Assembly: GCF_009601505.1 (NCBI RefSeq)
Contig: NZ_WITC01000027.1
Span: 1 to 64,000, forward strand
Reading direction: 5' to 3'
From: Sinorhizobium terangae
Lineage (GTDB): Bacteria; Pseudomonadota; Alphaproteobacteria; Rhizobiales; Rhizobiaceae
DNA length: 64,000 nt
Positions 9,779-26,407 of this stretch are shown here, piece by piece (the first letter of the stretch is position 1; each line of letters starts with the position of its first letter). The notes beneath the pieces are model-generated. The model saw nothing but the letters and a program-made list of their open reading frames with translations, did no database searches and was not told the DNA's origin. Made by a program: the position numbers and the translations under genes.

Positions 9779-12433
9779 ATGAGCAAAGGTTTTGACGACA
9801 TTCCCTTCTTCGACGAGGAGCCGGCACCGCGCAAACCCGCGCCCGCCGCCAACGGTATCGCTGCGCGCGCCATGGCCGCCCGCGACAACGCCAAGCGCCC
9901 GGATTATCTCTCCGGCCTCAATCCCGAGCAGACGGAAGCTGTCGAGACGCTCGAAGGACCTGTGCTCGTCCTCGCCGGTGCCGGCACCGGCAAGACCCGC
10001 GTTCTGACGACCCGCATCGCCCATATCCTTTCGACCGGCCGCGCTTTCCCCTCGCAGATCCTCGCGGTCACCTTCACCAACAAGGCCGCGCGCGAGATGA
10101 AGGAGCGCATCGGCGTGCTTGTCGGCCATGCGGTCGAAGGCATGCCCTGGCTCGGCACCTTCCATTCGATCGGCGTCAAGCTGCTCCGCCGCCATGCGGA
10201 GCTCGTCGGCTTGAGGTCGGATTTCACCATCCTCGACACCGACGATGTCGTGCGGCTGATCAAGCAGCTCATCCAGGCCGAAGGGCTCGATGACAAGCGC
10301 TGGCCGGCCAAGCAATTCGCCGGCATGATCGACACCTGGAAGAACAAGGGCCTCGATCCTTCGCAAATTCCGGAGGGCGACGCCCGCGCCTTCGCCAACG
10401 GCAAGGGCCGCGAACTCTACGCCGCCTACCAGAACCGGCTCTTGACGCTCAACGCCTGCGATTTCGGCGATCTGCTCCTGCACCCGATCCGCATGTTCCG
10501 CGCCAATCCGGATGTGCTCCGGGAATATCACGACAAGTTCCGCTACATCCTGGTCGACGAGTACCAGGACACCAACACCGCGCAATATATGTGGCTGCGG
10601 CTCTTGGCGCAGCGGCCGCAGGGAAAAAGCTGGTCGCAACGAAACCCCTCCCCAACCCCTCCCCACAAGGGGGAGGGGCAGGTGCGTGCCGCTGACTCCC
10701 GCTCCCCATCGCAGTCGAGCGAGGAGCAAGCGTCGAACCTCGATGACCGGAACGCGGCGGCGCGGCAGGATAGCCCCTCCCCCTTGTGGGGAGGGGTTGG
10801 GGAGGGGAAATCGCAGGGAGCCGGCGACAGGAAACCCACCGTCAACATCTGCTGCGTCGGCGACGACGATCAGTCGATCTACGGCTGGCGCGGCGCGGAG
10901 GTGGACAACATTCTGCGCTTCGAAAAGGATTTCCCCGGCGCCAAGGTCATCAAGCTGGAGCGCAACTACCGCTCGACCGAACATATTCTCGGCGCCGCCG
11001 CGCACTTGATCGCCCACAACGAAGGCCGCCTCGGCAAGACTCTCTTCACCGAACGCACCAATCCGGACGATGAGAAGGTGCACGTCCATGCCGCCTGGGA
11101 TTCGGAAGAGGAAGCCCGCGCCATCGGCGAGGAGATCGAGCAGCTACAGCGGCAGAAGCACAATCTGAACGACATCGCGATCCTGGTGCGCGCCTCGTTC
11201 CAGATGCGCGAATTCGAAGACCGCTTCGTCACACTCGGGCTCAACTACCGCGTCATCGGCGGCCCGCGCTTCTACGAGCGGCTCGAAATCCGCGACGCCA
11301 TGGCCTATTTCCGCCTTGTCTGCCAGCCGGCCGACGACCTCGCCTTCGAGCGCATCGTCAACACGCCGAAGCGGGGCTTAGGCGACACCACGGTGCGCAC
11401 CCTGCACGACTATGCCCGCGCGCGCGACATCCCCATGCTCGCCGCTGCGACCGAGATCATCGAGACCGACGAGTTGAAGCCGAAGGCGCGCAAAGCCCTC
11501 TTCGACGTCGTCACCGATTTCCGCCGCTGGCAGACGCTGCTCGAAACGACGCCGCATACGGAGCTTGCCGAGCAGATTCTCGATGAGAGCGGCTACACCG
11601 CCATGTGGCAGGCCGACAAATCGGCGGAAGCCCCGGGGCGGCTCGAAAACCTGAAGGAACTCATCCGCTCGATGGAGGCCTTCGAGTCGATGCGCGGGTT
11701 CCTGGAACATGTCGCGCTCGTCATGGACGCCGAGCAGAACGAGGATATGGATGCCGTCTCGATCATGACGCTGCATTCGGCCAAGGGCCTGGAATTCGAC
11801 ACGGTGTTCCTGCCGGGCTGGGAGGAAGGCCTCTTCCCCCACCAACGCGCGCTCGACGAGGGCGGCCGCGCCGGTCTCGAGGAAGAACGCCGCCTCGCCT
11901 ATGTCGGCATCACCCGCGCCAAGCGCCGCTGCCATATCTGGTTCGTCTCGAACCGCCGCATCCACGGCCTATGGCAATCGACGATGCCCTCGCGCTTCCT
12001 GGACGAACTGCCGATCGACCATGTGGAAGTGGCCGAGCAGGATGTCTCCTATGGCGGCTACGGTCGCGGCGGCTATGGCCAGTCGGGTTTCGACAAGGCC
12101 GATCCCTTCGAAAACTCCTACCAGACCCCCGGCTGGAAGCGCGCCCAGCAGCACCGCTCGGAGGCGACCCGCGACAATTGGGGCACCCGCTCCGGCCACG
12201 CCGTCGAGCGCATCGGCTACGGCGAGTCCGGCCCGCGCACCCGCATGATCGAGGGCGAACTGGTCGCCAAGTCGACGACCTCGGAACCCTCCCGCTTCAA
12301 CATCGGCGACCGCGTCTTCCACTTGAAATTCGGCAATGGCAACATCGCCGCGATCGAGGGCAACAAGCTGACGATCAATTTCGATCGGGCCGGACAGAAG
12401 CGCGTGCTCGAGGGGTTTGTGGAGCGGGTGTGA
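9779..12433 (+). CDS. uvrD: UvrD/PcrA-family DNA helicase with an in-frame palindromic insertion
   Basis: An 884-residue superfamily 1A 3'-5' helicase for nucleotide-excision and mismatch repair. The Walker A motif GAGTGKT is at residues 67-73, motif II VDEYQDTN near 258-265, motif III GDDDQSIYGWRG near 362, then the C-terminal motifs (TLHSAKGLEFD, YVGITRAKRR). The tail ends with a Tudor-like RVFHLKFGNG region. Between motifs II and III are about 70 extra residues rich in Pro, Ser and Gly (PSPTPPHKGEG to SPSPLWGGVGEG), encoded by a 35-bp perfect inverted repeat and its spacer. E. coli UvrD has under 30 residues there. The frame stays open. I chose ATG 9779 over the TTG 9 bases upstream; neither has a strong ribosome-binding site. 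Confidence 0.93.
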   Translation: MSKGFDDIPFFDEEPAPRKPAPAANGIAARAMAARDNAKRPDYLSGLNPEQTEAVETLEGPVLVLAGAGTGKTRVLTTRIAHILSTGRAFPSQILAVTFTNKAAREMKERIGVLVGHAVEGMPWLGTFHSIGVKLLRRHAELVGLRSDFTILDTDDVVRLIKQLIQAEGLDDKRWPAKQFAGMIDTWKNKGLDPSQIPEGDARAFANGKGRELYAAYQNRLLTLNACDFGDLLLHPIRMFRANPDVLREYHDKFRYILVDEYQDTNTAQYMWLRLLAQRPQGKSWSQRNPSPTPPHKGEGQVRAADSRSPSQSSEEQASNLDDRNAAARQDSPSPLWGGVGEGKSQGAGDRKPTVNICCVGDDDQSIYGWRGAEVDNILRFEKDFPGAKVIKLERNYRSTEHILGAAAHLIAHNEGRLGKTLFTERTNPDDEKVHVHAAWDSEEEARAIGEEIEQLQRQKHNLNDIAILVRASFQMREFEDRFVTLGLNYRVIGGPRFYERLEIRDAMAYFRLVCQPADDLAFERIVNTPKRGLGDTTVRTLHDYARARDIPMLAAATEIIETDELKPKARKALFDVVTDFRRWQTLLETTPHTELAEQILDESGYTAMWQADKSAEAPGRLENLKELIRSMEAFESMRGFLEHVALVMDAEQNEDMDAVSIMTLHSAKGLEFDTVFLPGWEEGLFPHQRALDEGGRAGLEEERRLAYVGITRAKRRCHIWFVSNRRIHGLWQSTMPSRFLDELPIDHVEVAEQDVSYGGYGRGGYGQSGFDKADPFENSYQTPGWKRAQQHRSEATRDNWGTRSGHAVERIGYGESGPRTRMIEGELVAKSTTSEPSRFNIGDRVFHLKFGNGNIAAIEGNKLTINFDRAGQKRVLEGFVERV
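10645..10807. repeat. Palindromic element inserted inside the helicase gene
   Basis: Left arm 10645-10679 and right arm 10773-10807 are perfect reverse complements over 35 bp (cores CCCCACAAGGGGGAGGGGC and its complement), separated by 93 bp. The arms are C/G-rich and unlike the surrounding coding sequence. They resemble the CTCCCC..GGGGAG palindromes at 21857-21881 and 26369-26394. Both arms and the spacer are read through in frame by the helicase. Confidence 0.85.
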
Positions 12434-21771: not shown

Positions 21772-21856
21772 CGGGTTGTCACCTGCCCGTTATCCGCCTA
21801 CCGGCACCTTCTCCTCGCAAGCAGGGGGATGGGACGACGCCGCACGCTCCCAATCC

Positions 21857-21897
21857 GCTCTCCCCGTCAGAACGGGGAGAGCGCTAGGGTGAGGGCC
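21857..21897. repeat. CTCCCC/GGGGAG palindromic intergenic repeat
   Basis: GCTCTCCCCGT and ACGGGGAGAGC (21857-21881) flank a 3-base centre and are followed by GCTAGGGTGAGGG. The same palindrome-plus-tail design occurs at 26348-26407, so this is a dispersed REP-like element. Confidence 0.75.
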
Positions 21898-26347: not shown

Positions 26348-26407
26348 CCCCTCATCCCGCTACCGCGACCTTCTCCCCGCGCGCGGGGAGAAGGTTAGGG
26401 TGAGGGG
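26348..26407. repeat. REP-like palindromic intergenic repeat
   Basis: CCTTCTCCCCGC/GCGGGGAGAAGG (26369-26394) is a near-perfect palindrome, framed by CCCCTCA at 26348 and TGAGGGG at its right end. It belongs to the same dispersed family as 21857-21897 and lies between panB and azlC. Confidence 0.8.

Follow-up and report, generated by a model that had tools for sequence, protein, structure and literature searches.

The uvrD gene of Sinorhizobium terangae raises the question of how a long, perfect palindrome comes to lie in frame within the motor core of a repair helicase. Within the window, by which is meant the whole 64,000-nt stretch of contig NZ_WITC01000027.1 that was analysed, uvrD (DNA helicase II, 884 aa) occupies positions 9779..12433 of the forward strand as an open frame, assigned by Pfam matches to UvrD-helicase and UvrD_C and by PDB alignments, with Ensifer sp. 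BR816 supplying the closest named orthologue (92%). Read in this frame on the forward strand, DEYQDTN at 10556..10576 is presumably helicase motif II, and GDDDQSIYGWRGA at 10859..10897 is taken to be the motif III region. Between them, an inverted-repeat search of the same strand located a 35-bp left arm (10645..10679), a 93-bp spacer (10680..10772) and a 35-bp right arm (10773..10807). The right arm is the reverse complement of the left over its full length (100% complementarity), both arms are themselves hairpins (CCCCTCCCC-ACAAG-GGGGAGGGG in the left arm), and the uvrD frame stays open across the two, confirming the in-frame palindrome between motifs II and III described in the initial annotation. 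The inverted-repeat score of the insert is 35, compared with at most 13 in 60 shuffles, and the arm core CCCCTCCCCACAAGGGGGAGGGG, with up to three mismatches allowed, has two matches in the window and none in 100 shuffles. Folding of the corresponding RNA (10630-10835) gave −141.2 kcal/mol (z = −10.1 relative to 200 shuffles), and Rfam gave one sub-threshold match, likely due to chance.

The entire variable insert, delimited by orthologues with an empty loop and by PDB alignments, consists of residues 282-355, from RLLAQRP to NICC (10622..10843, forward strand). In the alignment with PcrA (1pjr) the break separates residues 244 and 245, and in that with UvrD of E. coli (3lfu) residues 238 and 240, so the 74 residues are surplus relative to PcrA. 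Measured as the motif II-III segment, the protein has 107 residues where most Rhizobium loci have 37, an excess of 70 that agrees with the approximately 70 added residues first estimated. In the AlphaFold model, residues 282-352 have a pLDDT below 50, preceded by a helix and followed by the strand that runs towards motif III, consistent with the earlier placement of the insert in a loop of the motor core. Given that the model is weak overall, with a mean pLDDT of 66.6 and other motor stretches also below 50, the predicted disorder of this loop is supported, not proved.

The element, hereafter type A, recurs throughout the genome. BLAST of the element against the 7.08-Mb draft assembly (139 contigs) returned 71 pieces, and the arm core with up to two mismatches matched 35 times genome-wide, compared with none for a reversed-pattern control. 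Grouped by the author's own reading, these pieces and matches define 27 places, bearing out the suggestion that the uvrD copy belongs to a dispersed palindromic family that has entered a coding site. Element length ranges from 117 to 166 bp over the 17 places measured; the arms resemble one another, the spacers do not. A frame open for at least 30 codons on each side runs through the element in 15 of the 26 places other than uvrD (25 frames in total), and Pfam identified uvrB in one of these frames, a domain starting only after the element in two (Metallophos and DUF1513) and no domain in 22. Deciding coding from non-coding by frames and Pfam, short of a full annotation and with one place at a contig end (C120) outside the call, two of the 27 places are recognisably coding, namely uvrD and a degraded copy in uvrB, both nucleotide-excision-repair genes. 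Of the traits of a MITE, the long inverted arms are present and no target duplication was evident by eye at the element copies; a parent transposase was sought via PF01797 only, and this Y1 (RAYT) transposase domain had no match in the genome, the control search being positive in 5 of 14 genomes. One type-A copy (G000:C52:17164-17317) is flanked by TGCGGGAAAG and CTTAACCCGCA, as if inserted in the loop of an existing hairpin.

An insert at the same site is a general feature of the genus. uvrD was found in all 33 congeneric genomes, the present one included, and in each of them an insert occupies this position, in 11 cases of the same type, contrary to the expectation that close relatives would lack the extra residues. 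Single-linkage clustering chained 115 of the 142 inserts of the wider survey described below into one group and was replaced by hand-made signatures, so the family letters are rough. Judged by peptide, the 33 inserts comprise 11 of type A, 20 of type B or B-like and two of types D/E (CTCTCCCC/CTTCTCCCC), that is, at least three kinds. Three of the 11 type-A inserts are eroded, with deletions in the arms. The clearest type-B signature is GEARASQGWPDDVSSAPAERSRASGDSVSAN, and the type-B core appears by eye to be an array of small hairpins. The type-A arm core is present in 31 of the 33 genomes, many of which have type B in uvrD. Matches to the type-B core outside uvrD number only four in the 33 genomes, each 830-895 bp toward the N-terminal side of the uvrB match (G012, G026, G018 and G008). 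In two genomes (G018 and G016) the uvrD loop holds a tandem pair of type-B-like units.

The partner gene uvrB shows a parallel series. In the S. terangae genome the uvrB copy (positions 1490-1600 of L352, contig C125) is a degraded type-A element lying in frame in the C-terminal linker. The helicase, UvrB and UVR domains all lie ahead of the element, the frame continues for 122 residues past it, and the arms are degraded such that no inverted pair of at least 12 nt is found. All 33 genomes of the genus contain uvrB, and in the 30 loci read (L357-L386) the C-terminal linker was sorted with the author's own patterns as A-like in 15, C-like in 10 (peptide signature ISPPVGEMSGRTEGG) and other in five. 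The arms in uvrB are mostly degraded, with an inverted-repeat score of at least 15 in six of the 30 loci, and a B-like peptide is present in the N-terminal linker of four.

Beyond the genus, uvrD was collected from a family sample of 146 genomes, drawn from about 150 of 240 matches and skewed to closer relatives, and from named GTDB genomes, some of which were reached twice. Together with the genus this gave 259 loci, of which 255 could be read and four misfit the motif pattern. The frame is open in all 255. The length of the motif II-III segment divides them into 113 empty loops of 33-46 aa and 142 filled loops of 50-131 aa, with none between 46 and 50. The loop is empty in nine of ten named Rhizobium (R. 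alarense is filled) and in all three Agrobacterium, and filled in all five Mesorhizobium and all ten Bradyrhizobium. A strong inverted repeat (score of at least 15) is present in 38 of the 142 filled inserts, with several different arms among them (for example ATCTCCCCCC, CTTCTCCCCG, CCCTCTCCCC, CACCTCCCCC and GTCATTCCGGG types), and different elements occupy the same codon position in different species. Six of these 38 were merged into one query and searched in their six source genomes; counting type A, all seven inserts tested have further copies in their own genomes. Because 104 of the 142 have no strong inverted repeat and the type-B core is nearly single-copy, a dispersed origin is not shown for every insert, and part of the weakly palindromic ones may be decayed elements or native linkers.

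The reading that best accounts for these observations, held with a probability of roughly 0.83, is that UvrD offers, between motifs II and III, a permissive and disordered surface loop where dispersed REP-like palindromes have landed repeatedly in Hyphomicrobiales, with the linkers of UvrB used likewise. Elements would arrive by some form of transposition or by template-switch copying, and the insert would then be translated and retained in the protein. The likeness of the arms would be kept by forces acting on the nucleic acid, whether template-switch homogenisation, conversion between copies or selection on the hairpin.

The type of insert changes repeatedly between species. A tree of the uvrD flanks with the insert removed (36 rows) implies 10 changes of type and rejects type A as a clade (p-AU = 6e-8), and an rpoB tree (31 rows, one per genome) implies eight changes and likewise rejects a type-A clade (p-AU = 4e-5). 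In both trees G007 (type A) and G006 (type B) are sisters, and this pair differs in uvrB linker type as well. Import of short tracts by homologous exchange was considered as the cause of switching between A and B and rejected, since the nearest 60 bp on each side have no association with type (Fst = −0.012 and −0.048). Some farther windows do associate with type, for example −360 to −300 (permutation p < 1/300), with a value of.040 for the gene as a whole, as would be expected from shared ancestry; very short tracts or old exchange may lie behind the switching. Between sister species, no block of differences recurs consistently next to the insert except recoded Ile-Cys-Cys codons. At the right edge of the uvrD insert in L076, L072, L077 and other loci, Ile-Cys-Cys-Val following ACA CAA CAA is written ATT TGT TGT GTG in place of ATC TGC TGC GTC, which makes an 11-bp inverted repeat; L073 and L091 are without it.

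Two further routes to this distribution were examined. Fresh insertion of type A, separately for each species, is disfavoured by the similarity of the uvrD spacers, which in seven of seven comparisons, made with own-genome copies only, are closer to each other than to the 16 other type-A copies of the genome (weakest comparison, 5.3 for the best uvrD spacer against −1.5 for the best genomic one). An ancestral tandem of A and B followed by differential loss was tentatively set aside, with both types together in none of the 33 genomes. Given the mutual likeness of the spacers and flanks without a trace of type, type A in uvrD seems to be old and held in common, yet scattered, and the scatter may stem from replacement happening repeatedly, from exchange of very short tracts or from ancient polymorphism.

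The arms and the remainder of the insert evolve under different regimes. Codons were compared among the seven type-A rows with both arms, leaving aside three rows with deleted arms and the row of the conspecific G032, which is the same as that of the window. In the uvrD flanks, pS was.341 and pN.016. The corresponding values were.063 and.030 for the arms, and.480 and.314 for the non-arm part of the insert. The loop peptide is thus almost unconstrained, with the spacer evolving near-neutrally, while conservation of the arms extends to synonymous positions. No segment with amino-acid conservation across the family was found: sister species differ, and the high pN of the non-arm portion of type A is that of a drifting peptide, in keeping with the insertion first proposed. 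Third-position differences amount to.039 in the arms and.242 in the flanks, and flank block pairs as low as the arms arose once in 20,000 random draws, overlapping draws being counted as not lower. The type-B core behaves similarly, with.067 against a flank median of.220 and none of 774 flank windows as low (15 of the 20 type-B rows). Inserts also fold far better than their surroundings: among 134 inserts with a segment of at least 60 residues the median fold z is −3.43, compared with −0.12 in 240 flank pieces; z falls below −3 in 71 of the 134 and in two of the 240, and 107 of the 134 fold better than every flank of their own. The weaker-folding types B and 'other' have median z values of −1.78 and −1.25.

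Conservation of arms and B core at synonymous sites, together with this excess of folding, is what might be seen if the hairpin itself were selected, the cruciform or mRNA stem in uvrD being functional in tuning expression or as a UvrD substrate and the palindromes being interchangeable parts. A further point in its favour comes from 37 loci ending in QQ(I/V)N, where the third positions of the Gln codons pair with the third positions of Ile-Cys-Cys (Gln1 with Cys1 in 34 of 37 and Gln2 with Ile in 31 of 37). However, the covariation stems mainly from two haplotypes, and with the partners slid by −3 columns the score is equal (.169, compared with.171 unslid; pairing cells 57.5% and 87.7%), so this silent-site pairing, seen at the right-hand border of many B-like inserts, is suggestive only. 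Selection on the hairpin also sits poorly with the 113 loci in which the loop is empty, with the one-sided changes in the arms of type-A rows and with the loss of arms by deletion in three of them. Template switching is known to homogenise arms (PMC8604942; PMC8794818), which would give the same picture and could explain the conservation of the arms in the absence of selection. A selected hairpin is thus considered unlikely. The same holds for the stronger proposal that uvrD and uvrB are true cassette sites, with hairpin modules exchanged among species faster than the genes diverge and coding hairpins actively maintained, which is regarded as doubtful; were it true, excision-repair genes would host, and perhaps be tuned by, the DNA structures that their products handle.

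The segment could instead be a native, fast-evolving linker of UvrD that resembles a repeat merely through base composition. Among 45 UvrD proteins the motif II-III segment is the sole motor stretch between conserved columns that varies by more than five residues in length. Four C-terminal linker stretches of the same proteins vary by 13 to 55 residues (the N-terminal tail lay outside the measurement), as a linker origin would lead one to expect, and type B is nearly single-copy, with B-like peptides occurring in other genera. Against this, each of the seven inserts tested is a dispersed repeat in its own genome, empty orthologues are shorter by about 70 residues, and sister species differ by whole cassettes. 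A native linker is therefore improbable, being disfavoured for the palindromic types, although some of the 104 inserts with weak palindromes may be of this kind.

Skipping or removal of the insert, by ribosome bypass or as an intron or intein, would spare the cell from decoding an mRNA stem of −141 kcal/mol, a severe obstacle, and the bypassed elements of some mitochondria are hairpin-rich. The reading frame speaks otherwise: the coding frame of the 142 inserts contains no stop codon, while the other two forward frames contain 149 and 193, a bias that skipping would not need. The type-A spacers in uvrD, at 93, 69 and 27 nt, are all multiples of three, albeit through few independent changes, element length is divisible by three in eight of 17 other copies measured in the genome, and intein or intron domains are absent among the Pfam matches. 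With the coding frame free of stops and the others rich in them, the insert is very probably translated, and skipping is highly improbable. An assembly artefact at the repeat, conceivable in a window from a 139-contig draft, can be set aside as extremely unlikely, since the three-contig genome of the conspecific G032 has the same insert peptide and arms and two further three-contig genomes (G007 and G022) also carry type A in uvrD.

The permissive-loop reading extends earlier work on repeats within genes. The initial annotation knew of no comparable case in a rhizobial helicase; the available text of a 2013 report (PMC3733652) describes REPs inside genes, many of them in genes of DNA replication and repair, and names a UvrD/Rep helicase, uvrA and the uvrB of Rickettsia conorii among the genes bearing them. 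The REPs in recB of two Xanthomonas lie at about the same site, and those of other genes in the category differ in site (PMC3733652). Both data sets concern in-frame palindromes in repair genes, and some UvrD cases described here may be included in the supplementary table of that report. Relative to its available text, three points are added. Across an order, unrelated palindromes belonging to several arm families have filled one and the same UvrD site repeatedly; sister species alternate between cassettes in both uvrD and uvrB; and in uvrD it is at the nucleic-acid level that the palindromic parts are conserved, whereas the peptide drifts. In a literature search that covered few subscription papers and only main texts, no account emerged of palindromes filling a single UvrD site in series, and serial refilling of a single site appears to be new.

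Other repeat systems resemble the type-A family in part. By their description (PMC3733652), Rickettsia palindromic elements share the combination of an in-frame coding copy with non-coding copies; they occupy many R. conorii genes, compared with two recognisably coding places of 27 for type A, and differ in that different families here use the same gene site. Like REPs of the GTAG/CGTC superfamilies, which are dispersed palindromes of 20-40 bp and often occur as inverted pairs, the 35-bp arms are dispersed hairpins found mostly as inverted pairs, but the uvrD arm contains CCTC and neither GTAG nor CGTC, does not have the AT at the first two positions of published REP stems, and resides in a genome without a RAYT match to PF01797. 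Bradyrhizobium sp. LTSP885 (L144) has both half-sites of the Bradyrhizobium repeat Br-REP1, CCGGAATCTCGAG and CTCGAGATTCCGG, in frame in its uvrD loop, where the halves are split by 15 nt, although Br-REP1 was described as intergenic in the available text of PMC5082802. Within the same genus, RIME, Sm-repeats and ABC motifs of Sinorhizobium meliloti are, from their description (PMC2573895), structured repeats that are likewise dispersed. Long, perfect inverted repeats within translated genes also occur as the coding palindromes of nematomorph mitochondria (PMC6649704), with arms that encode conserved protein where the uvrD arms encode a variable loop.

If the permissive-loop reading holds, core repair proteins carry the changing scars of mobile DNA. 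At a single codon position of a core repair enzyme, relatives present a natural series of in-frame insertions in empty, fresh, decayed and replaced states, with a parallel series in its partner UvrB. Such a series makes testable how palindromes enter genes and are kept there, why repair genes recur as hosts, and how disordered protein segments are born.

The window contains two further palindromes, at 21857 and 26369, to which the initial annotation had likened the uvrD element. A palindrome search confirmed both as real and perfect, with arms of 12+12 and 14+14 nt respectively, and neither was assigned a strand. They belong to the CTCTCCCC and CTTCTCCCC types and fall outside the uvrD arm family, so the likeness to the element of this uvrD did not stand. 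The first, CGCTCTCCCCGT/ACGGGGAGAGCG (21856..21883), is of a kind that G012 and G031 have in their uvrD loops, and the second, ACCTTCTCCCCGCG/CGCGGGGAGAAGGT (26368..26395), of a kind found in the uvrD loop of L117, L222 and L227; CTCTCCCC- and CTTCTCCCC-like sequences thus occupy the uvrD loop in other species.
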